DNA of 43,568 nucleotides from assembly GCA_030682385.1 (NCBI GenBank), contig JAUXOG010000114.1, positions 1 through 43,568 on the forward strand, given 5' to 3'. The notes under the pieces were generated by a model. The model was given only the letters and a program-made list of their open reading frames with translations, was not told the origin of the DNA and did not search any database. The position numbers and the translations under genes are program-made. This document shows positions 31,766 to 42,607 of the stretch, in pieces; position 1 is the stretch's first letter, and every line of letters starts with the position of its first letter. The stretch is from Bacteroidota bacterium. Lineage in GTDB: Bacteria; Bacteroidota; Ignavibacteria; UBA10030; BY39.

Positions 31766-31984
31766 ATGAATCGTAAACCACCAAAATTTTTGATGATTTT
31801 CAGTTATACGGTTTCGGCAATAGTTATTGTTGCAGGTATTGGAATTATTGCCGGACTCATTTTCCCCCCTTATGTTCCTTCTAATTTTAGAATTATCACG
31901 GGGATTGTATTTATCCTCTATGGAATTTATCGGTCAGTTACAATCTGGACTAAAAGTAAACAAACGTTTAATAATGAAGAATAA
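31766..31984 (+). CDS. Small two-helix membrane protein
   Basis: 72 residues with two hydrophobic segments (about 9-31 and 41-60) and a charged tail (TKSKQTFNNEE). It starts at the base after the tonB stop and overlaps the next gene by 11 bp, so it is a genuine part of the operon. No family recognised; a possible small partner of the Ton complex or of the lipoprotein downstream (inference). Confidence 0.65.
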   Translation: MNRKPPKFLMIFSYTVSAIVIVAGIGIIAGLIFPPYVPSNFRIITGIVFILYGIYRSVTIWTKSKQTFNNEE

Positions 31985-32906
31985 TTTATTAAAATATTTT
32001 CTTCTAGCATTCATAATAATTGGATGCGATTCGGGTTCTGAAAAAGAATCGCCCACAAAAGGAACTCTGAAGTTATTCGTCTCAGAAACCGTTGCTCCGC
32101 TTGCAGACGGATTGGCGGAAAGATTCGAACATCTTTACACCGATGCCAATATTGAAGTGCATAGCACTTCAGCACGTGAAGCAGTCGCTCACTTACTAAC
32201 TGATAGCGTAGAGTTGATAATTATTTCTCGACAGTTAACCCAAGACGAGCAGGAACTTGTTACCAAGCATGAATTAAATATTCATCCTCATGAAATTGCA
32301 AAGAGCGGGTTCATATTAATTGTGAACGATAACAATCCAATTAAAGGACTCCGTATTTCACAGTTAGACAGTATTTACGATGGTAAGTTGAAGTATTGGA
32401 AGGATTTGGGCTGGAAAGGCTCGTCGTCAAAACTTCAGTTTTATTTACCCGGACGAAATTCAGATGTGTACGACTACAGCGTTGACAAATTTTCAAATAC
32501 AAAAACGCTGCCCAATAATTTTTATACCGTCTCGACAGTCGATTCTGTAATCGATATAGTTGCATCGCATTCGAACACTATTGCGATGTTGGGTTTAAAT
32601 TATTTCGACAAATCATACACAGACATAAAATTTTTAGAACTAAGTGATAGATCGGAAGTAACCGACTCGCTCGGTGTAAGCGGAATTTATTTCCCACCCG
32701 AGCAAGCTTATGTTTACCGGAATCATTATCCGCTTCAAATTCCAGTTTATATTTATTCAAACATTAAAAGTGTTGGATTGGCAAGTGGTTTTGTTTCGTT
32801 CGTATCAAGTGTGCAAGGTCAAAAAATTGTTCAAAATAACAGGCTCGTTCCAGCAACGATGCCGGTTCGCATTATTCAGTTAAATAAAGAGGAAAAAAAG
32901 CAATGA
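31974..32906 (+). CDS. PstS-like solute-binding lipoprotein
   Basis: 310 residues from the ATG at 31974, where a signal peptide with lipobox-like IIIGC begins; the open frame extends further upstream but only as overlap. The body has the PstS/phosphate-binding-like pattern: GTLKLFVSETVAPLADGLAERFEHLYTDANIEVHSTSAREAVAHLLTD, IIISRQLTQDE, GFILIVNDNNPIKGLRISQLDSIYDGKLKYWKDLG, and a C-terminal SFVSSVQGQKIVQNNRLVPA. No ABC permease or ATPase gene accompanies it, so it is probably not a classical uptake component. Ligand unknown. Overlaps the TPR gene by 4 bp. Confidence 0.8.
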   Translation: MKNNLLKYFLLAFIIIGCDSGSEKESPTKGTLKLFVSETVAPLADGLAERFEHLYTDANIEVHSTSAREAVAHLLTDSVELIIISRQLTQDEQELVTKHELNIHPHEIAKSGFILIVNDNNPIKGLRISQLDSIYDGKLKYWKDLGWKGSSSKLQFYLPGRNSDVYDYSVDKFSNTKTLPNNFYTVSTVDSVIDIVASHSNTIAMLGLNYFDKSYTDIKFLELSDRSEVTDSLGVSGIYFPPEQAYVYRNHYPLQIPVYIYSNIKSVGLASGFVSFVSSVQGQKIVQNNRLVPATMPVRIIQLNKEEKKQ

Positions 32907-34525
32907 AATCCTTAAAAAACATTTTAATCAGCCTTCTATTATTATCTTTATTAACTCTCTCTACCAAATCGTATGCTCAAGATTCATTTGAGTTAGGGAA
33001 AGAGGAGTTTAAAAAAGAAAACTATCAGAAAGCCCTTAAGCATTTTCGCGATTCTATGAAAAAACATAAGAAGAATCCCGAATTATTTTTTATGATGGGA
33101 ACTTCTTTAGTTAAAATAGATTCTCTCGATGAAGCGCTCGTTGCGTTTACTCAATCTCGAGAGTTGGACGATAAAAACCCTTTTATTTATATTAACATCG
33201 GAGATATTTATTTTAAACAAGGAATATCGCCCGCAGCAATTGAACAATATCAAAAAGCCATCGATTTGAATATGGGCTTAATCGAGGCACACATAAAGCT
33301 TGCACAGACTTACAAGAAAATGCGAAAATGGAACGACGCCGCGAAAAGCTATCTGACAGCCATTCAGCTCGATACGACTAATGCAAATCTTTACGATGAT
33401 TTAGGAAATATCTATTTTCTAGCAAAGCAATTTGCAAATGCTGCTAAAATGTATAAAAAGCTCACCGAGTTGCGTCCTCATTCATTCGATGCGCAATATT
33501 TGTATATGAAATCACTCTCCGAAATTAAAAGCTATGAAGAAGTGATTAGAGTTGCTGAAAAAGTTTTGGCACTCGATTCAACCAAGTTCGATGCTCATAG
33601 GATAATTGCTTATGCTTACGTAGAATTGAAAGACTTTAAAAAATCTGAGACAGCATTTACAAAATTAAAAGAAAAAACTGAATTAACAGCCGAAGATTAT
33701 ATAAAATTGGGAAAAGCTCAGCAAGGTCAGGACAAGCAGGAATTGGCAATCCAATCTTATGAAAAAGCATTAACCTTGGATTCTACCCTAGTTGATGTTT
33801 TTGCCGACCTCGGAGCTTTGTATATGCGGCAAAAGCGATACGCCGAATCGGCTGCAATGTATGAAAAGAAAATAGTAATTGATTCAACATCACTTAGCGC
33901 CTATTTGAATGCTTCATCCTCATATCTTCAATTAAAAAATTATCAACGCAGCAAGGAACTTCTTCAAGCGGCAGTTGAGTTAAGACCAACCTATATAGGT
34001 TCGCGACTTAAACTTGCTCAGACTTTTGCATTTATGGATTCGCTAGATGCTGCTAAACAAGAATACGATGAAGTATTAGCTTTAATCGGTGATCAAAAAG
34101 ATAAGTACAAAAACGAACTTCTTGAAGCATACAATATGATAGCTTCGTTTTATTTTCAGAAGCAGAAATATGCAGCCGCTGCCGAGTGGGCTCGTAAGGC
34201 AATAACTTCGGGCGCCGACGATGCATCGATTCGTGTTCTTCTCGGACAATCAATTATGCTTAACCGTACAGACGATCCCGATGAAAACAGGAAAAGAGAT
34301 GAAGAAGCAGTCCGTCACTTCAGAAAAGCAATAGAACTTGATCCAAAAAGTGTACAAGGTCATCTATGGTTGGCAAACGGTTTGATTTATTTGCGCATCG
34401 AAGGGGAAGATGAATTAAATAAAAAATTAGCCGCCGAAGCTATTTCGGAGTTCAAAATAGTTTTGAAATTAGATCCTAAAAACGAAGATGCTAAAAAAGG
34501 TCTCGATAGATTGGGTGCGAAATAA
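32903..34525 (+). CDS. Secreted TPR-repeat protein
   Basis: 540 residues. Signal peptide 1-25 (ends SYAQD), then about a dozen TPR units through the C-terminus (for example ELFFMMGTSLVKIDSLDEALVAFTQSRELD, AAIEQYQKAIDLN, AIQSYEKALTLDSTLVDVFADLGALY, AVRHFRKAIELDPKSVQGHLWLANGLIYL). A periplasmic scaffold, likely binding other envelope proteins. Its 4-bp overlap with the PstS-like gene and its place after exbBD-tonB suggest a role with the Ton system. Confidence 0.88.
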   Translation: MKSLKNILISLLLLSLLTLSTKSYAQDSFELGKEEFKKENYQKALKHFRDSMKKHKKNPELFFMMGTSLVKIDSLDEALVAFTQSRELDDKNPFIYINIGDIYFKQGISPAAIEQYQKAIDLNMGLIEAHIKLAQTYKKMRKWNDAAKSYLTAIQLDTTNANLYDDLGNIYFLAKQFANAAKMYKKLTELRPHSFDAQYLYMKSLSEIKSYEEVIRVAEKVLALDSTKFDAHRIIAYAYVELKDFKKSETAFTKLKEKTELTAEDYIKLGKAQQGQDKQELAIQSYEKALTLDSTLVDVFADLGALYMRQKRYAESAAMYEKKIVIDSTSLSAYLNASSSYLQLKNYQRSKELLQAAVELRPTYIGSRLKLAQTFAFMDSLDAAKQEYDEVLALIGDQKDKYKNELLEAYNMIASFYFQKQKYAAAAEWARKAITSGADDASIRVLLGQSIMLNRTDDPDENRKRDEEAVRHFRKAIELDPKSVQGHLWLANGLIYLRIEGEDELNKKLAAEAISEFKIVLKLDPKNEDAKKGLDRLGAK

Positions 34526-34531
34526 TTTCTT

Positions 34532-35098
34532 ATGGCTCAAAGTTTAAAGAACTTACCTGTCGGTAAACGCTCCCCTGACATCGTCAACGCGATAGTTGAA
34601 ATACCAAAAGGAAGCCGGAATAAATATGAGTTCGATTTGGAACTCGGCGTATTTCGTTTAGACCGGGTTTTGTATTCCTCGATGCATTATCCTGCCGCTT
34701 ATGGATTCGTCCCGAGCACTTTATATGAAGATGGCGACCCCGTTGATGTTTTGATAATAATTGACCAACCCCTTAGCACCGGAGTTTTAGTTGAAGTCCG
34801 TCCGATCGGTGTGTTGCGTATGTATGATGAGCACGGTTCAGACGATAAGATACTTTCCGTAGCTGTCCACGACCCGACATATAAAACTGTAACCGAAGTA
34901 AACCATTTGCCGAGTCATTTGCTTGTTGAAATAGAACATTTTTTTACAAGCTATAAAAATTTAGAAGGGAAGATGGTTAAAAGTTTTGGTTGGGATTCGG
35001 CTCAAGCTGCCCGTCAGGCAATTACGAGTGCGGCTAAGAAATTCAAAGCTAAATCAAAAATCAATACAGTCCGCCCAAGGCGGAAGAAAAATAAATAG
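34532..35098 (+). CDS. ppa: Inorganic pyrophosphatase (family I)
   Basis: Hydrolyses pyrophosphate to two phosphates, pulling biosynthetic reactions forward. 188 residues with EIPKGSRNKYEFD, the signature EDGDPVDVLIIID holding the magnesium-binding aspartates, VRPIGVLRMYDEHGSDDKILSV and EHFFTSYKNLEGK. The lysine/arginine-rich C-terminal tail is an extension beyond the usual ~175 residues. It begins 6 bp after the TPR gene and may be read through from that operon. Confidence 0.95.
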   Translation: MAQSLKNLPVGKRSPDIVNAIVEIPKGSRNKYEFDLELGVFRLDRVLYSSMHYPAAYGFVPSTLYEDGDPVDVLIIIDQPLSTGVLVEVRPIGVLRMYDEHGSDDKILSVAVHDPTYKTVTEVNHLPSHLLVEIEHFFTSYKNLEGKMVKSFGWDSAQAARQAITSAAKKFKAKSKINTVRPRRKKNK

Positions 35099-35123
35099 GA
35101 CAGTGTGGTTCTATAAATTCAAA

Positions 35124-35226
35124 TGAATGTCGAATATCGAACACGGAATTATGAATTTTGAAGTGATGTTTCTCTGGGCTATTCATTCACTTAAAGCGGA
35201 TTCGTTGTTCGATACTCATCGTTAGA
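35124..35226. repeat. Imperfect palindromic intergenic element upstream of tRNA-Thr
   Basis: The left arm (GAATGTCGAATATCGAACAC) and right arm (GTTGTTCGATACTCATCGTT) are inverted and similar. Inner arms near TTGAAGTG and CACTTAAAG also pair. The left part resembles the spacer at 14821-14848 read on the minus strand. No gene. Together with the hairpins after the tRNA it fills most of the 425-bp gap between ppa and the PHP-domain gene. Confidence 0.35.
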
Positions 35227-35244
35227 ACTACCTATATTAAATAT

Positions 35245-35316
35245 GCTGGCGTAGCTCAGTGGTAGAGCAGCTGATTCGTAATCAGCAGGTCGTCGGTTCA
35301 ACTCCGACCGTCAGCT
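35245..35316 (+). tRNA. tRNA-Thr (anticodon CGT)
   Basis: Complete cloverleaf by eye: acceptor GCTGGCG / CGTCAGC (one G-T pair), D arm GCTC..GAGC, anticodon stem GCTGA / TCAGC with loop TTCGTAA (anticodon CGT, reads ACG), T arm GTCGG-TTCAACT-CCGAC, discriminator T. The 3' CCA is not encoded. A diverged second copy of its 3' end lies 113 bp downstream. Confidence 0.93.
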
Positions 35317-35341
35317 CTAAAATATTCGTAATAAACCGTTC

Positions 35342-35364
35342 CGTCCCGTTATTTGAGCGGGACG
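35342..35364. repeat. Hairpin 1 after tRNA-Thr
   Basis: CGTCCCG (35342-35348) and CGGGACG (35358-35364), 7-bp perfect stem, 9-nt loop. No T-run follows, so a standard terminator is unlikely. Confidence 0.6.
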
Positions 35365-35372
35365 TGAATCCT

Positions 35373-35395
35373 CGTTCCGAAAGTTATTCGGAACG
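35373..35395. repeat. Hairpin 2 after tRNA-Thr
   Basis: CGTTCCGAA (35373-35381) and TTCGGAACG (35387-35395), 9-bp perfect stem, 5-nt loop, 8 bp after hairpin 1 and of the same overall length (23 bp). Confidence 0.65.
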
Positions 35396-35400
35396 TGACA

Positions 35401-35440
35401 GTCCGTTGGTTCAACTCCGACCATCAGTTCAAAAATTTGT
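35401..35440 (+). repeat. Diverged second copy of the tRNA-Thr 3' end
   Basis: GGTTCAACTCCGACC (35408-35422) is identical to the T arm at 35295-35309. Similarity continues through the acceptor 3' strand (ATCAGTTC against GTCAGCTC) and weakly past the tRNA end (AAAA..ATT..GTAA). The rest of a tRNA is absent. The stretch 35441-35523 shows nothing recognisable. Confidence 0.7.
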
Positions 35441-35523
35441 AAAAGCCCGCAGCAGTTGTTTCCCAACCGCCAAAGCCACGTTACACTTTTGTTCAATAAT
35501 ATGTTTCATTAAATCAAAAAAAA

Positions 35524-37281
35524 ATGCAAAAAAATACTTTACTCATTCTTATATCACTAATACTGATATTTACCGGTTTTACAATTGCTCAAACTCCGGC
35601 ATATAATTTTTATTTTGGTAACATCCATTCTCACACATGGTATTCAGATGGGAATAAAGATAAAACCCCTGCCTCGTACTTAGCTCCTGTTGCCAAAGCA
35701 ATGGAATATGGAAGAACTGTTGCTAATAATTTGAATTTTCTCGCAGTTACTGACCACAACCATAACGAAAGTTTGAATATGACGTTGGCATACTGGCGCT
35801 CAGGTGTAATTGAAGCTGATACGGCAAACAAAGATGGAATCTTTGTTGGATTATATGGACAGGAGTGGGGCACACTTGCAACTAATGGAGGACACGCACT
35901 AATTTTTGGAACAAATAAACTTATTGGTTGGAATCCTGGCGTTTACGACATCTATGTAGCAAAGAATGATTATTCTACAAGTTCTGCTGGTTTGTGGCGT
36001 CGGGTTTCAATGGAAAATGGATTTATTTATTTAGCACATCCAAGTTCAAGTGATTTTAATAATTTAATTGCGAGTCCATTCAACACTTTGATCGACAGTG
36101 TGCTAAAAGGCGTTGCTTTAAAAAGCGGTCCAGCTTTTTCAACTAATACAACGCAAACCGATCCTTCCAGCTCAACTTATGAATCTTATTATCATAGTCT
36201 CTTAAAACTCGGTTATCACGTGGCTCCAAGTTCTGATCAAGATAACCACTACACAAACTTTGGTATGAGCAACCAACAGCGAACAGTTGTAGTCGCCCCT
36301 TCCTTAACGAAGTCTGAAATTTTAAATGCATTGAGAAATCGTCGTGTTTATGCCTCTGAAGATAACAATATACAAGTTCGATTCGAAGTAGGTACAAATC
36401 TTTTGGGCGATATTTTTTCCGCTGCGCCGCCGTTTGGTATTAAAGTTAAAGTTTCCGATGCAACTCCGGGTGATGTAGTCTCTAAAATTGAGATCAGATA
36501 TGGAGTACCGGGTTCCGGGGCTGTGCCAACTGTTTTAGCAACTGTGAGCGGCAGGGATTCGTTAGTTACTACTGTTACCCAACCACTCGGTTCCACTTAT
36601 TATTATTATGTCTACGTCCAACAAGTGGATGGACATAGAGTATGGACTGCCCCGATGTGGATTACAGCCAAAGAAGATCAGTTGCCCGTTACTTTTGGAT
36701 CGTTCGCAGCAACTTTAAATCTTACTGGTGAAGGAATAAAACTTGAATGGTCAACGCTCACTGAAAAAAATAATTACGGCTTCTATGTTCAACGGAAAAA
36801 AGCAAGTGATATAAATTTCCAAACTATTAATTCTGAAGTGATTCCAGGTGTTGGTGAACCTCACGCTTATTCTTATTTTGATAGTACAATTGTAGATGCC
36901 GGAGAATATGAATATCGTATTCTGCAAGTTGATAACGACAGTTTGCAACATTATTCCTCAACTGAAAAAATAAGTTTTACACCAACGGCAGTTTTTGAAA
37001 ATTCGGGACTCCCTTTGAAATATAAATTATCCCAAAATTATCCCAATCCGTTTAACCCTGTAACGAACATCCAATATCAAGTTCCCGAGTACAGCTTCGT
37101 ATCATTACAAGTGTTTGATATTTTTGGTAGAGAAGTACAAGCATTGGTCAATGGTTACATTCAGCCGGGTTATTATCAAGTAGAATTTGATGGTTCTAAT
37201 CTGGCAAGCGGAATATATTATTATCAACTGAAAACGCCCAATTCAAGCAGATTAATGGGTAAAATGATTTTACTCAAATAA
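35524..37281 (+). CDS. T9SS-exported PHP-domain protein (putative metallophosphoesterase)
   Basis: 585 residues. Signal peptide 1-22 (ends IAQTP). Residues ~28-270 form a PHP (polymerase and histidinol phosphatase) domain: NIHSHTWYSDG (His35, His37), LAVTDHNHNE, YGQEWGT, GHALIFGT, LAHPSS and SDQDNH supply the metal ligands, as in CehA/McbA-type hydrolases. Residues ~290-390 and 395-480 look like beta-sandwich domains. The C-terminus is a T9SS type A sorting domain (SQNYPNPFNPVTNIQYQVPE..SGIYYYQLK). Expected at the cell surface or released. A phosphoesterase activity is inferred from the family; substrate unknown. Confidence 0.85.
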   Translation: MQKNTLLILISLILIFTGFTIAQTPAYNFYFGNIHSHTWYSDGNKDKTPASYLAPVAKAMEYGRTVANNLNFLAVTDHNHNESLNMTLAYWRSGVIEADTANKDGIFVGLYGQEWGTLATNGGHALIFGTNKLIGWNPGVYDIYVAKNDYSTSSAGLWRRVSMENGFIYLAHPSSSDFNNLIASPFNTLIDSVLKGVALKSGPAFSTNTTQTDPSSSTYESYYHSLLKLGYHVAPSSDQDNHYTNFGMSNQQRTVVVAPSLTKSEILNALRNRRVYASEDNNIQVRFEVGTNLLGDIFSAAPPFGIKVKVSDATPGDVVSKIEIRYGVPGSGAVPTVLATVSGRDSLVTTVTQPLGSTYYYYVYVQQVDGHRVWTAPMWITAKEDQLPVTFGSFAATLNLTGEGIKLEWSTLTEKNNYGFYVQRKKASDINFQTINSEVIPGVGEPHAYSYFDSTIVDAGEYEYRILQVDNDSLQHYSSTEKISFTPTAVFENSGLPLKYKLSQNYPNPFNPVTNIQYQVPEYSFVSLQVFDIFGREVQALVNGYIQPGYYQVEFDGSNLASGIYYYQLKTPNSSRLMGKMILLK

Positions 37282-37363
37282 AAGGCAACTAAACTCGTTT
37301 TGCAATTGTTAGAAAATTATAATATATTAACACCAGAATAATTTAAAATATTAGGAGATTTTA

Positions 37364-37585
37364 ATGAAAGACGGTATTCATCCGACATATAAAAAAGCTA
37401 TTGTTACATGTATTTGCGGAAATACATTTGAAACACGTTCGAGCATTGGTAATATAAAATTAGAAATATGCTCAGCTTGCCACCCATTTTTTACCGGGAA
37501 GCAGAAAATACTCGACTCAGCGGGTCGTATCGAAAGATTCAACCGCAAGTATTCTAAATCAAAAGAAGAAACTCCAACAGTTTAA
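37364..37585 (+). CDS. rpmE: Ribosomal protein bL31 (zinc-binding form)
   Basis: 73 residues: [56 protein letters not shown]. Cys16, Cys18, Cys36 and Cys39 make the zinc site, so this is the C+ form. TTAGGAGA before the ATG and a TATAAT-like box near 37316-37321 fit a single-gene transcript, closed by the terminator downstream. Confidence 0.97.
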
Positions 37586-37614
37586 ACGGAGTCGGTACGA
37601 GTGTGTTTTAAAAG

Positions 37615-37648
37615 ACGGAATGTATAACTTGCATTCCGTTTTTTATTT
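37615..37648 (+). terminator. Rho-independent terminator after rpmE
   Basis: ACGGAATG (37615-37622) and CATTCCGT (37632-37639) form an 8-bp stem with a 9-nt loop; six T from 37639 follow. A upstream and T downstream extend the stem. Confidence 0.85.
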
Positions 37649-37686
37649 AAGTCTGATTGAAACCCTTTAACAATCACAAATAAAAT

Positions 37687-38961
37687 ATGAAGATATATAT
37701 CTTTGAAGATGAAGGTTACAAAAATTTTTTACCGCTGACATATTTCAGACCTGTGTATGATTTACGTTGCGGGGCTCTGTCGCTGAAAGAGAAAATTGAA
37801 AAATATCTTAAAAACAAAGTAACCGGTTTACACACACGGAAAGAGTTGACCGGCGTTACCAAAGAATCATACCCTAAAAAAGATATTAACAATTTTCCAA
37901 CAGATTATTCTTTATTTATTAACGGTCGGATAATTGCAGATAAAAATTTTTTTAAAGAGATAAAGTTTGAGAAGAGTATCGATCAATTATTTATCAGCGG
38001 CGATACCATTGTTGCTGCATACCTTACTCCTCAAACGTTAGAGTCGATGAAAAAATATTGGCTCGGGAATCCCTTTCCTTTATTTCAAGTTTCTAATTTT
38101 AAAAATATTCCGATACATAACATAGATGCACGGGTTGCAAATTATCCGTGGGATTTAATTACTTTTAACGGTGATGAAATCGGGAACGACTTTTATCTTC
38201 TCGCTAAAGAAATGAAGGGGAAAACAATTTTAGGGAAAATACATAAAGGTGTACACTTACTAAATCGTCAAAACATAATAATGGATCGGGAATCTGAAAT
38301 CCACCCCGGCGTTGTTTTGGATGCATCAAACGGCCCGATAATCATTGGCGCCAATGTTCTGATCATGGCAAACTCGGTAATTACAGGTCCGGTCTATATC
38401 GGTGATGATTCGATAATTAAAATTGGTGCAAAAATCTACAGTAATACTTCAATCGGTGATTCATGCAAAGTTGGTGGCGAAGTTGACTCAACAATTATCC
38501 AATCGCATTCGAACAAACAGCACGATGGATATTTAGGGCATGCGTATGTAGGAAGTTGGGTTAATATCGGCGCCGATACGAATAACAGCGATCTGAAAAA
38601 TAATTATTCTCCAATCAAAGTTACTATCAACGGGAAGTTAATAAATACAGGATTGATACATTTCGGAACAATTCTTGGAGATCATTCCAAGACGGGTATC
38701 AATATGATGTTTGATACAGGTTCTGTGGTTGGAGTTTTCTGTAACCTATACAGTGCTGGCTTACCTCCCCGGTATATTCCATCCTTTACGAGAGGGAGCG
38801 GTTCGGGACCGTTAAAAACAAATTCATTTGAAATGAGTATCGATACTGCAAAAATTGTTATGGCGCGTCGCAATGTCCAACTTACCAAAGAATATGAAGA
38901 ATTAGTAAAAATAGTTTTCGATGACACACAAACCGAACGTAAACAAACAGGCATACTATAA
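37687..38961 (+). CDS. GlmU-like putative sugar nucleotidyltransferase
   Basis: 424 residues. The N-terminal part (MKIYIFEDEGYKNFLPLTYFRPVYDLRCGALSLKEKI..) belongs to the NTP-transferase-like group typical of Bacteroidota and lacks the usual G-x-G-T-R-(x)n-P-K pyrophosphorylase loop. The C-terminal half (about 195-385) is a left-handed beta-helix with hexapeptide-like repeats (IIIGANVLIMANSVITGPVYIGDDSIIKIGAKIY) and the conserved GHAYVGSWVNIGADTNNSDLKNNYSPI. Role in activating a sugar for envelope glycans is likely but unproven. Ends 8 bp before rsmB. Confidence 0.8.
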   Translation: MKIYIFEDEGYKNFLPLTYFRPVYDLRCGALSLKEKIEKYLKNKVTGLHTRKELTGVTKESYPKKDINNFPTDYSLFINGRIIADKNFFKEIKFEKSIDQLFISGDTIVAAYLTPQTLESMKKYWLGNPFPLFQVSNFKNIPIHNIDARVANYPWDLITFNGDEIGNDFYLLAKEMKGKTILGKIHKGVHLLNRQNIIMDRESEIHPGVVLDASNGPIIIGANVLIMANSVITGPVYIGDDSIIKIGAKIYSNTSIGDSCKVGGEVDSTIIQSHSNKQHDGYLGHAYVGSWVNIGADTNNSDLKNNYSPIKVTINGKLINTGLIHFGTILGDHSKTGINMMFDTGSVVGVFCNLYSAGLPPRYIPSFTRGSGSGPLKTNSFEMSIDTAKIVMARRNVQLTKEYEELVKIVFDDTQTERKQTGIL

Positions 38962-38969
38962 AATACATT

Positions 38970-40322
38970 ATGATATTAACCGATCAACAAAATATATACG
39001 AAGGTGTTCGCGGGACTTCCATCAAAATTTTAAATCGGATAGAAAGAACCGACGCATATCTCGATAAGCTGCTTGATACCGAGCTGCGAAATAAGGAGGT
39101 TTCGGATTTAGATAAAAGTTTATTGAATGAAATTGTTCATGGTGTTATCCGATGGAGAAGCCGGCTCGACTGGGTAATCAACGGGTTCTATCACGGAAAT
39201 TACGTAAAGTCCGAGATTAATTTAAAAAATGCACTGCGAGTTGCAACTTATCAAATCTTATTTCTACAAAAAATACCGCACCACGCAGCAGTCAACGAAG
39301 CAGTCGAGTTTATTAAGCGGCTCAATGGAGAGAAGGCTGCCAATCTTGTAAATGCAGTTCTTCGTACTATAATCCGTAACATAGATGAAATAAAGTTTCC
39401 CGACCCTGCGGTGGATGCAGTACATTATTTAGGTGTTTACTATGCACATCCAACGTGGATGGTAAAAAAATGGTTGGCACGTTTTGGATTTGAAGATACT
39501 CAGAAACTTCTCCTGGCAAACAATCAAATTCCGGAAATCACAATTCGAATTAACCGGCTCAAAATTGAACCCGCAAAATTTTTGTCATCCCTTGAAGAAG
39601 CGAAGTTATCATATCAAGGGTCTGAGTATATCGATTATTATCTCAGAGTGCGTAATCTTTCCGAACTGTCGGAGTTGAATTATTTCCAAAGCGGATACTT
39701 TACAATTCAGGACGAAAGCGCCGCCCTGCCATCAATTTTGTTGAACCCGCAACCGGGCGAACGGGTGATTGATATGTGTGCAGCTCCCGGCGGGAAAACC
39801 ACACACCTTGCTGAGATTATGAAAAATCAAGGCAAAATTATCGCAGTCGATAAGTATGACCATAAATTGAATCTCATTCGTACAAGTTGTGACCGGCTTG
39901 GAATAGATATAGTCGAATATGTTGTTGGCGATGCAAGCGAACTTGAGTTAGAAAGTGCCGACAAAATTTTAGTGGATGTTCCTTGTTCCGGACTCGGTGT
40001 TTTGCGAAAAAAACCGGATATAAAGTGGAAACGAGAACCCGATGATTTGCTCAAATTGAACGTCTTCCAAACCGGATTACTTAATAACGCAGCAAAATTA
40101 TTGAAACCTGGAGGTGCTATCGTTTACAGCACTTGCACTACAGAACCGGAAGAAAATTTTATGATTATAGAAGAGTTCTTAAAAACTCATACAGATTTTG
40201 TAATCGAGGATGCTGCAAAATACATAAACCATATTTTGGTAAACGAAAATAAATGTGTCGAAACGTATCCTCATAAGCACCATATCGACGGCTCCTTTGC
40301 TGCGAGGTTAATTAAAAAGTAA
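38970..40322 (+). CDS. rsmB: 16S rRNA (cytosine-5)-methyltransferase RsmB
   Basis: Methylates C967 of 16S rRNA (E. coli numbering). 450 residues: N-terminal NusB-like RNA-binding domain (about 1-140, AYLDKLLDTELR..LNEIVHGVIRWRSRLDWVI..HHAAVNEAVE), then the Rossmann methyltransferase with motif I IDMCAAPGGKTTHLAE, DVPCSGLGVLRKKPDIKW and the catalytic Cys in YSTCTTEPEEN. The C-terminus ends DGSFAARLIKK as usual. Slightly longer than E. coli RsmB (429). Confidence 0.95.
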   Translation: MILTDQQNIYEGVRGTSIKILNRIERTDAYLDKLLDTELRNKEVSDLDKSLLNEIVHGVIRWRSRLDWVINGFYHGNYVKSEINLKNALRVATYQILFLQKIPHHAAVNEAVEFIKRLNGEKAANLVNAVLRTIIRNIDEIKFPDPAVDAVHYLGVYYAHPTWMVKKWLARFGFEDTQKLLLANNQIPEITIRINRLKIEPAKFLSSLEEAKLSYQGSEYIDYYLRVRNLSELSELNYFQSGYFTIQDESAALPSILLNPQPGERVIDMCAAPGGKTTHLAEIMKNQGKIIAVDKYDHKLNLIRTSCDRLGIDIVEYVVGDASELELESADKILVDVPCSGLGVLRKKPDIKWKREPDDLLKLNVFQTGLLNNAAKLLKPGGAIVYSTCTTEPEENFMIIEEFLKTHTDFVIEDAAKYINHILVNENKCVETYPHKHHIDGSFAARLIKK

Positions 40323-40340
40323 ACAAACATAGGAGGGGTT

Positions 40341-41354
40341 ATGAAGAAAATTATCTTTATTGCAGTAACTGTTCTTATATCAGCGATTTTATTTACTTAT
40401 TCCGAAAATCAAAAATTATTATCTCCAAAAGAAATTTCAGTTTCAACTTTTTCAATCGTTGGTTACGATCCACAAACAGGCGATTTAGGTGTGGCAGTTC
40501 AATCAAAATTTCCGAACGTTCGTCCCATTGTTCCTTGGGCTGAGGCAGGTGTGGGGGCAATCGCGACTCAATCGTTAGCAAACACAAGCTACGGTCCCAA
40601 AGGATTGGCACTGATGAAAAACGGCGCCACTGCCGAAGAAGCTCTGAAAATTTTAATAGCCAACGATTCACTAAGAGATGAACGACAAGTTGGTATCGTA
40701 GATGCAAAAGGGAATTCAGCAACTTGGACAGGAAAAAATTGTTTTGATTGGGCTGGAGGGCAAGCAGGAAAAAGTATTGCCGGCAAAGGCGAAATCGTAA
40801 CGGGAAAAAATTTTGCTGCTCAAGGAAATATTATTGTTGATATTAAAACCATCGCAGCGTTATCAAAAACTTTCGAGAGTACTCGCGGGCCGTTATCGGA
40901 CAGGTTGTTAGAAGCTTTGATTGCCGGTGGTAAAGCCGGCGGCGATAAAAGAGGCGAGCAATCTGCTGCTCTGTTAGTCGTCCGCAAAGGTGCTGGTTAC
41001 GGCGGTGAATTAGATAATTTCATCGATATCAGTGTTTACGACCATCTAACTCCACTCGCCGAATTGAAGCGGCTATATGAAATTCACAAACTATATTTCT
41101 TTAAGTCCAACCCCAATAATTTGATTGTGATTGACGAAAAATTGTGTAAAGAATTACAAACAATTATGAAGGATCGAGGTTTTTACAAGGGAGAAATCAA
41201 TGGTAAGTTCGACGATTTTACGAAAAAGACTTTAAAAGATTTTATGTACTGGGAAAATTATGATGAGCGTGTCCGGGATGATAATATGATCGATAAAGAA
41301 GTTTTAATTGATTTACAGAAAAATTATCAAGTGTGGAAGAAGAATAAAAAATAA
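40341..41354 (+). CDS. Secreted DUF1028 family protein with C-terminal peptidoglycan-binding-like domain
   Basis: 337 residues. Signal peptide about 1-20. Residues ~30-255 match DUF1028: STFSIVGYDPQTGDLGVAVQSKFPNVRPIVPWAEAGVGAIATQ, then GKNCFDWAGG, AAQGNIIV and GGDKRGEQSAALLVV; this family has an Ntn-hydrolase-like look with a Thr/Ser near the start of the domain. Residues ~265-330 (LCKELQTIMKDRGFYKGEINGKFDDFTKKTLKDFM) resemble a PG_binding_1 module. AGGAGGGG before the ATG. Substrate not known; the binding module suggests the periplasm or cell wall. Confidence 0.82.
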   Translation: MKKIIFIAVTVLISAILFTYSENQKLLSPKEISVSTFSIVGYDPQTGDLGVAVQSKFPNVRPIVPWAEAGVGAIATQSLANTSYGPKGLALMKNGATAEEALKILIANDSLRDERQVGIVDAKGNSATWTGKNCFDWAGGQAGKSIAGKGEIVTGKNFAAQGNIIVDIKTIAALSKTFESTRGPLSDRLLEALIAGGKAGGDKRGEQSAALLVVRKGAGYGGELDNFIDISVYDHLTPLAELKRLYEIHKLYFFKSNPNNLIVIDEKLCKELQTIMKDRGFYKGEINGKFDDFTKKTLKDFMYWENYDERVRDDNMIDKEVLIDLQKNYQVWKKNKK

Positions 41355-41371
41355 ACTTTAGAGGATCAACA

Positions 41372-42607
41372 ATGCAACTAATGAAAGCAGTTATTAAAGA
41401 AAAGCCATATCCGGGGAAGGATTGGCACAAAGGTTTTAAACTCACTGAAAAGGAAATCCCTGAAATAAAAAATTCCGATGAAGTGAAGATTAAAGTATTA
41501 GCGACAGCAATTTGCGGAACCGACGTGGGAATTTATAACGCAAAAGATTCGCTCAAGGATTCGATGATGATTTTAGACACACCGGACGTTATTGTCGGGC
41601 ACGAGTTTAGCGGCAAAATTGTCGATGCGGGTGCAAAAGCAAAACTTCAACTTGCACAGATGTTGATTGATCAGGTAAAAGGCATCTCTGTTGTTAAAAA
41701 ATTTGTAGGCAGGCGCAGCCCTATTCAGCTTGCAAGCGATCCAAACTTTTTCAAATTTTTAGATAAGTATATTTACTGTTCAGCCGAAATGCATGTTACC
41801 TGCGGCAAATGTGTTCAATGTAAAGCCGGCGATTATCATGTCTGTCAGAATACAATTATCAGAGGTTTACACGGCGATGGCTCGTATGCTGAATACTTAA
41901 CTTTGCCTGTCGAAAATATTCGTCTATTTTATAAAACTGATATCCCCCTCGAAGTAATTGCATTTATGGATGCAATCGGAAATGCAACCCATACTGTACA
42001 ATCGGTTGATGTTAAGGGAAAATCGGTTGCGATATTAGGTTGCGGTGTTCAGGGATTAATGGCGACAGCAGTGGCGAAATATCTAGGAGCAAAAAAAATA
42101 TTTGTTACCGATGCTTCGCACGGCGAGTTTACGCATGACAAGTTAGAAAATTCCCGCTTCCGACTTGCTCGGTTGTATGGAGCTAAGCATTGCTTTGATG
42201 TTTCGATTGACCGGGAGAAAGAAAAATTTTACAAAACAGTTTTAGAAGAAACTAACAATGCCGGTGTTGATGCGGTTATAGAAATGTCGGGTAACTACAA
42301 AGCCTACGAGGATGCTTTTAAAGTTATTAGGATGGGTGGAACAATTTCGTTACTCGGCATACCCGGCGGACAAATGGTAACCGACTTCGCAAAGCATATA
42401 ATATTCCCCGGTGTAACAATCAAAGGCATTATCGGACGAAGAGTATGGGACACGTGGGATGTTATGACTGAAATTCTGAAAAAAGGTCTTGCCAAAAAAT
42501 TCGTTAAAACAGGATTCATCACGCACGATTTACCGCTCGAAAAAGTTGATGAAGGCATCAACGCTATAATGAAAGGCGACGCGCTGAAAGTTATATTAAG
42601 ACCGTGA
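41372..42607 (+). CDS. Zinc-dependent MDR alcohol dehydrogenase (threonine dehydrogenase-like)
   Basis: 411 residues. Catalytic-domain marks: ICGTDVGIYN (zinc Cys), GHEFSGKIV, and a structural-zinc lobe with CGKCVQCKAGDYHVC. NAD-binding fold with VAILGCGVQGLMATAVAKYLGA. The pattern NAIGNATHTVQSVDV resembles L-threonine 3-dehydrogenase and sorbitol dehydrogenase relatives. About 55 extra residues (AKAKLQLAQMLIDQVK..FLDKYIYCSAEMHVT) sit between GHE..G and the cysteine cluster, where relatives read directly GDRV. Start ATG 41372 has GAGG 7 nt before it. Substrate uncertain. Confidence 0.82.
   Translation: MQLMKAVIKEKPYPGKDWHKGFKLTEKEIPEIKNSDEVKIKVLATAICGTDVGIYNAKDSLKDSMMILDTPDVIVGHEFSGKIVDAGAKAKLQLAQMLIDQVKGISVVKKFVGRRSPIQLASDPNFFKFLDKYIYCSAEMHVTCGKCVQCKAGDYHVCQNTIIRGLHGDGSYAEYLTLPVENIRLFYKTDIPLEVIAFMDAIGNATHTVQSVDVKGKSVAILGCGVQGLMATAVAKYLGAKKIFVTDASHGEFTHDKLENSRFRLARLYGAKHCFDVSIDREKEKFYKTVLEETNNAGVDAVIEMSGNYKAYEDAFKVIRMGGTISLLGIPGGQMVTDFAKHIIFPGVTIKGIIGRRVWDTWDVMTEILKKGLAKKFVKTGFITHDLPLEKVDEGINAIMKGDALKVILRP

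Follow-up and report, generated by a model that had tools for sequence, protein, structure and literature searches.

A hairpin-bearing copy of a tRNA-Thr(CGT) tail in a Bacteroidota bacterium as the probable scar of a small mobile element invading tRNA genes

The window, meaning here the whole stretch of 43,568 nucleotides that was analysed, contains an intact tRNA-Thr(CGT) gene which is followed by a pair of hairpins and a copy of its tail. The features of this region are:

35245..35317, + strand: intact tRNA-Thr(CGT), identified with ARAGORN and scoring 72.4 bits against the Rfam tRNA model
35324..35337, + strand: anticodon-arm-like piece ATTCGTAATAAACC ahead of the hairpins, with a 9-nt match to 35274-35282 that is weak alone
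35338..35399, + strand: double-hairpin insert, GTTCCGTCCCG...CGGAACGTGAC, its pattern matched elsewhere
35342..35364, + strand: hairpin 1, 7 perfect pairs closing a 9-nt loop
35373..35395, + strand: hairpin 2, 9 perfect pairs closing a 5-nt loop
35399..35436, + strand: tRNA-Thr 3'-end remnant consisting of the T arm, the acceptor 3' strand and a few bases past the end, conserved in genome G001

Alignment of 35399-35436 to 35286-35323 gave 84% identity over 38 nt at a spacing of 113, with an exact 15-mer, GGTTCAACTCCGACC, common to the tRNA tail and its copy and with a match that extends to bases beyond the end of the tRNA; the duplicated tRNA-Thr tail noticed in a preliminary description of this DNA is thus real. 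The local score of the copy was 26, compared to a maximum of 15 when the downstream 500 nt were dinucleotide-shuffled 2000 times and of 14 among 154 other 500-nt slices of the window. The whole arrangement of tRNA, hairpins and remnant is also present in the same-genus genome G001 at 96% identity, and in several relatives pieces comparable to ATTCGTAATAAACC, for example TCGGGATAATCAG, could be seen by eye at the same place. A search for a 5' remnant upstream of the window tRNA-Thr revealed none. When looking for the source of the 3' remnant, four tRNA-Thr alleles scored equally, the window's own intact tRNA being one of them.

The hairpins had been described as two of equal length, 23 bp each. 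Both are present and equal, but since each unit measures 23 nt this number is the length of the unit and not of a stem. If one G-T pair is permitted hairpin 1 becomes 9 pairs with a 5-nt loop. The two hairpins precede the T arm, leaving the T loop of the remnant unbroken, and RNA folding of 35245-35440, a stretch which includes the tRNA itself, gave a z of -4.8. Just upstream of the tRNA, the region 35110-35225 carries inverted arms (35132-35149 and 35200-35217) that are 83% complementary, and a sequence resembling it interrupts, as judged by eye, a GIY-YIG gene located after tRNA-Asp in the same genome (L044).

When the window's genome was searched with the hairpin pair two other strong matches were found, both on contig C103 and both sitting in broken tails of tRNA-Pro(CGG), the gene of which lies just upstream, while three further matches were only 14–19 nt long (E 0.12–2.7). 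Between the two broken tRNA-Pro tails a small GIY-YIG nuclease gene is located. That both of the other strong matches are found in tRNA tails agrees with the earlier suggestion of a scar left by an element at a tRNA gene, for which it had been proposed to see whether other copies of the two-hairpin unit follow tRNA tails as well. A pattern made from the first examples matched nine distinct sequences in the collected loci, eight of which were read by eye as tRNA remnants (of tRNA-Thr, tRNA-Pro and tRNA-Trp, the one in L172 being a 5' remnant) and the ninth of which (L076) sits at a contig end; the proportion is biased because the collected loci were mostly tRNA loci. In L078 (genome G043) a tail copy with the same type of double hairpin is situated downstream of tRNA-Trp, its hairpins falling, as judged by eye, roughly at the anticodon-stem position that those of the window occupy.

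Broken tails could also be identified at other tRNA genes of the window's genome. A scan for tail repeats, covering 30 loci out of 39 tRNA matches and complemented with reading by eye, revealed them after Arg(CCT), Glu(TTC), Ala(GGC) and Pro(CGG), the Glu(TTC) tail scoring barely above its shuffles (23 against 22); hits inside tRNA clusters arose because adjacent intact tRNAs were unmasked. At both tRNA-Pro(CGG) and tRNA-Leu(CAA) the intact tRNA is followed by a hairpin-broken tail, a GIY-YIG ORF and another hairpin-broken tail, and in the first tail of tRNA-Leu(CAA) the hairpin is located in the T loop, the second tail containing a hairpin of the same kind. The arrangement at tRNA-Arg(TCG) starts with an exact 22-nt copy of the 5' end, followed by a GIY-YIG ORF and the intact tRNA. 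This genome contains 18 PF01541 matches altogether. For 8 of them a tRNA is situated no more than 300 nt away, invariably on the strand of the match, and simple arithmetic with 39 tRNA matches in 3.38 Mb gives a chance expectation of ~1%.

On contig C122 of genome G000 (35019-36555) a tyrosine-integrase match is found ~650 nt after tRNA-Ser(GCT) and a GIY-YIG gene upstream of the same tRNA, which is perhaps a case of two kinds of elements at one tRNA. In L092 and L104 (contigs C102 and C91) the GIY-YIG ORF is situated within an apparent tyrosine-recombinase gene, just ahead of its last segment, and on C102 the integrase-domain match ends 30 nt before the GIY-YIG match.

The domain PF01541 was found in 6/6 of the member proteins, and in the alignment of the members (A1) the residues Y6, Y17, G19, R27, H31 and E63, which we take to be the catalytic ones, are invariant. 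The nearest solved structures are those of UPF0213 proteins followed by SLX1, with I-TevI as a weak match. A PHROG family of homing endonucleases weakly matched three of the six members, and a search among phage records with one protein gave four weak matches, 37–41% identical.

Comparisons between related genomes revealed sites that are filled in one genome and empty in another. The nuclease insert at tRNA-Pro(CGG) is present in the window's genome and lacking in G001, with flanks that align on both sides; the intact tRNA-Pro(CGG) genes of the two genomes show five differences, all in the T arm, and the first tRNA-Pro remnant in the window's genome retains TCTCGC of the G001 type, as read from the alignment. 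At tRNA-Leu(CAA) the nuclease gene is again found in the window's genome and is absent in G001, the upstream flank aligning and the downstream flank doing so only partly. For tRNA-Ser(GGA) there are two nuclease genes in G001 and none in the window's genome, with flanks that fail to align, and the Ser(gct) pair represents a loss and not a gain because G001 retains a GIY-YIG fragment. The one clean comparison at a tRNA-Thr is that of G013 and G018, which belong to the same genus and share both flanks of the locus. G018 contains one tRNA-Thr there. In G013 the native tRNA-Thr is cut in the anticodon loop, with a further insert in the D arm, and the native halves enclose a second, complete tRNA-Thr, which is of another type and has TCCCGATGC and GCATCGGGA at its borders; a GIY-YIG gene was searched for at this locus and none was found.

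Recoding of the intact tRNA is clear only for tRNA-Pro and for G013, whose intact tRNA belongs to a different type. The idea that G57 of the intact T loop is generally recoded to A came from tRNA-Leu and tRNA-Pro and is not claimed because other nuclease-linked tRNAs (L127, L229) keep G57. The intact tRNAs retain the T loop and could be targets too.

To place these loci in a wider context a survey was performed using an alignment of six proteins from the window's genome, five of them tRNA-linked. This query matched at least 81 of the 98 genomes of the order and at least 191 of the 296 genomes sampled across the phylum; in the phylum's genomes not all of the GIY-YIG matches are linked to a tRNA. 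The loci consisted of the best matches together with others picked by hand among the matches listed, and the phylum set favours arrays. Among the matches listed, the distinct ORFs with a tRNA no more than 300 nt away were 8 of 17 in the window's genome, 75 of 100 in the order set and 33 of 64 in the phylum set, the fractions for order and phylum being biased because high-scoring or hand-picked loci were used together with a mostly tRNA-linked query. All GIY-YIG genes within this distance share the strand of the tRNA, 115 of 115 distinct genes (8+75+33 on the same strand and 0 on the opposite, with one protein counted twice, at L098 and at L107 which is a refetch of it; in the cluster and strand counts identical proteins were entered once). 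A scan of named genomes gave only three loci.

After removal of repeats the order and phylum sets contained 108 tRNA/GIY-YIG clusters, in which a tRNA half was scored only if it was at least 3 points above the highest score reached by any of 20 tRNAs of other isotypes. In clusters where the gene follows the tRNA, the 3' half is found beyond the gene in 57 of 64 measurable cases (45 alone and 12 with both halves), the remaining ones showing the 5' half alone (3) or neither half (4), and three more clusters were not measurable. Where instead the gene precedes the tRNA, a 5' half was found ahead of the gene in 29 of 38 cases (25 alone, 4 with both halves) and neither half in 9, and when nuclease genes are located on both sides of the tRNA both halves are present in 3/3 clusters. 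Among the 102 measurable one-sided clusters 13 are thereby without a remnant on either side and 3 have the unexpected half only. In tandem arrays a unit of nuclease gene plus hairpin-broken tail is repeated (L225 and L229; also the array in L226). The array L225 belongs to a single-contig genome (G323) and contains five nuclease matches at a regular spacing of 450 nt after tRNA-Leu(CAG). In L121 (G090) a GIY-YIG gene is located between what by eye appears to be a signal-recognition-particle RNA gene and a broken, hairpin-bearing copy of it, and the targets may therefore include other structured RNA genes.

The GIY-YIG proteins cluster by tRNA isotype more than by host. For this analysis ORFs shorter than 70 aa, ORFs with no tRNA on the same strand within 500 nt and repeat proteins were excluded, leaving 125 proteins, and one ORF was kept per locus, giving 106 proteins for the count of isotype changes. 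The tree of these shows 20 changes of tRNA isotype, compared to a mean of 64.7 (minimum 59 of 500) for shuffled labels and to a mean of 62.2 (minimum 52) when the labels were shuffled inside host families. For host family the same tree shows 58 changes against a shuffled mean of 71.1 (minimum 61). The comparable tree of 125 proteins was built on 88 columns and has many open forks.

When analysing the hairpins, 45 remnants were found to contain 48 inserts with a mean folding z of -3.44, 29 of the 48 lying within the bottom 2% of single-base shuffles. When the set was enlarged to 63 remnants, the T loop contained 26 of 62 inserts (11.0 expected) and the acceptor stem 0 of 62 (10.6 expected). Of the 58 scorable remnants, 29 have a broken T loop and 29 an unbroken one, and five remnants start inside the T loop or beyond it. 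Both the sequence and the position of the hairpins vary among relatives. The phage endonuclease SegB is, in the available part of its description, reported to prefer the motif RAWTSGAAC, present at 23 of 83 mapped sites, and to cut substrates without it less well (PMC13096335). The reverse complement of this motif, GTTCSAWTY, is the usual T-loop sequence, and the distribution of the inserts is compatible with T-loop hairpins destroying a cutting site. Of the features expected of a free-standing homing endonuclease gene, a nuclease domain, presence and absence at the same site and fidelity to the target across hosts were found for the tRNA-linked GIY-YIG genes; we infer that these genes home into tRNA genes.

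Based on these comparisons we read the tail copy in the window as the probable scar, without a nuclease gene, of a small mobile element invading tRNA genes. Such an element would carry an intact tRNA gene, or a part that restores one, often together with a GIY-YIG nuclease gene, and would insert into a resident tRNA gene of matching isotype, the broken half of the old gene staying beside the insert; as the element would bring its intact tRNA into a gene of the same isotype, the cell would therefore retain one working tRNA. The nuclease, bound to one isotype, would presumably cut the resident tRNA gene, whereupon repair would copy the element with its working tRNA into the cut gene, and the displaced halves would gain hairpins, often paired, in or near their loops, spoiling the cutting site. 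In the window the nuclease gene may have been lost through recombination between two remnant copies, given the layout of tRNA, remnant, nuclease and remnant at two other tRNAs, or the cassette may have been without such a gene from the start, as in G013. The residue would in either case be an intact tRNA-Thr with a single hairpin-bearing 3' remnant, and judging from G013 the intact tRNA is possibly the copy delivered by the element.

No GIY-YIG ORF was found in the window's or in any other tRNA-Thr locus examined and the link between the window and the nuclease is, because of this, an indirect one. With no nuclease gene at the locus the window is regarded as a scar and not as a member of the nuclease family, and by analogy it would belong to the family of GIY-YIG/tRNA cassettes. 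Other observations that speak against this reading are the lack of a 5' remnant upstream of the window tRNA, the unbroken T loop of its 3' remnant, the tie between four source alleles, the T loops kept by intact tRNAs and the clusters that show no remnant or only the unexpected half. Measurements of 31 distinct tRNA-Thr(CGT) loci identified 8 with a 3' remnant, 2 with a 5' remnant and 21 with neither, L061 being wrongly among the latter since its remnant matches another tRNA-Thr type.

The alternative that survives best, still a rather unlikely one, is that the tRNA 3' end was duplicated in tandem and that a REP or double-hairpin palindrome later entered the free copy, the GIY-YIG genes being a separate matter. 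Hairpins of the form TCCCG..CGGGA are indeed abundant, occurring 144 times in the whole genome G000 compared to 8 times for the reversed control pattern, the tRNA-Thr loci examined have no GIY-YIG gene and the window's own tRNA is among the top-scoring sources of the remnant. In addition CGTC repeats are reported within palindromes and, in the part of the source available, without a known transposase (PMC3733652). However, in G013/G018 a native tRNA is split around a different intact tRNA with no tandem copy, and the hairpin unit's two remaining strong matches within the window's genome belong to a GIY-YIG locus. The G013/G018 pair also argues against a duplication of the target by a tiny palindromic element, as first suggested for the window, since the downstream piece there is a displaced native half and the type of the intact tRNA is a different one. 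The 9-mer ATTCGTAAT at 35324 had prompted the idea that 35274-35323 was simply duplicated in tandem, which was demoted in view of the split tRNAs of relatives; for the window itself, where the four source alleles score equally, it is a possible origin.

Decay of a second, tandem tRNA-Thr gene, with the copy as its surviving end, is improbable. The remnant clearly represents the end of a tRNA-Thr and L048 shows, by eye, two further tails in tandem, but two intact tRNA-Thr(CGT) genes were found in no locus among those listed, and the halves with their hairpins fit the pattern of the elements. Decay of a tRNA gene had been named at the outset as the finding that would speak against an element, and this applies by half, because the downstream piece in G013/G018 is a displaced native tRNA half; in the window itself four source alleles score equally.

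An attachment-site scar from an excised tyrosine-integrase island, for which a duplicated tRNA tail is the usual sign and which the preliminary description had considered, is very improbable. No mobility domain was found in the eight ORFs scanned around the tRNA (31827 to 42607), among them genes for a pyrophosphatase, a protein with a secretion-sorting tail and a sugar nucleotidyl transferase, none of the seven integrase-domain matches in the genome is located on the window's contig, and like scars recur at many tRNAs beside GIY-YIG genes. The least probable reading is a functional RNA 3' of the tRNA, a processing or termination device under selection, for although the arrangement is 96% conserved in G001, the stretch (tRNA included) folds better than its shuffles and comparable remnants are seen across several of the order's families, 21 of the 31 tRNA-Thr(CGT) loci lack a remnant by the test used (L061 wrongly included) and the hairpins vary in sequence and position.

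Returning to the scar of a tRNA-invading element, a broader and more tentative proposal is a natural, phylum-wide family of cleave-and-rescue elements, in which an isotype-specific GIY-YIG nuclease would destroy the resident tRNA gene and bring a replacement, hairpins would immunise the displaced halves, and cassettes without a nuclease, such as those of tRNA-Thr, would be carried in trans. If this is true, tRNA genes are themselves mobile and lineages exchange them. Phages are known to have nuclease genes beside tRNAs, and here relatives are found in many bacterial chromosomes. Should homing be confirmed, it would provide a route for horizontal replacement of tRNA genes, a natural model of a drive that includes the rescue, and perhaps an agent for spreading short palindromes that have no known transposase. 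Elements of this kind could also account for some of the tRNA fragments in genome annotations.

Among known systems, integrase islands at tRNA 3' ends restore the tRNA and leave a displaced tail. The elements proposed here differ from these in that the window has no integrase, that displacement can affect the 5' half as well as the 3' half and that the elements are a few hundred bases in size. Engineered cleave-and-rescue gene drives combine a nuclease against a needed gene with a working copy of that gene, which serves here as an analogy only. No paper on chromosomal GIY-YIG elements that split tRNAs was found among the top matches in the open-licence PMC literature.

The hairpins resemble, in being short dispersed palindromes that often occur as dimers and some of which lie inside other palindromes, the CGTC-tagged palindromic repeats as far as these are described in the available text (PMC3733652). 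The tag is there defined as unpaired; both window hairpins have CGTC or CGTT as part of the stem, so the combination of an unpaired CGTC tag, an 8–9 bp stem and a CCA-like tail was not found in them, and the inserts here are located in broken tRNA genes. Short dispersed palindromes, often as dimers, are likewise a feature of the mitochondrial repetitive hairpin elements, and the Allomyces double-hairpin elements cited in the same source, as far as available, offer a further case for comparison (PMC2800124).

A close parallel is SegB of the phages T4 and T6, according to the available parts of two papers a GIY-YIG homing endonuclease with a free-standing gene located in tRNA regions (PMC13096335, PMC2988022). 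Likenesses are the GIY-YIG nuclease gene adjoining tRNA genes, the preferred motif which equals the usual T-loop sequence, and the amplification of tRNA and nuclease through recombination, which resembles the tandem arrays of L225, L229 and L226. Since the nearest structures are UPF0213 and SLX1, and I-TevI is weak, kinship with SegB can be seen only at the GIY-YIG domain, and the parallel is one of arrangement and motif and not of demonstrated kinship. Isotype fidelity and hairpin-bearing tRNA halves are not described in the available parts of the SegB papers (PMC13096335, PMC2988022). In contrast to SegB, the elements described here are bacterial chromosomal genes encoding about 80–95 aa, closest among solved structures to UPF0213 and SLX1, whose lineages are largely faithful to one tRNA isotype and leave hairpin-bearing tRNA halves behind.
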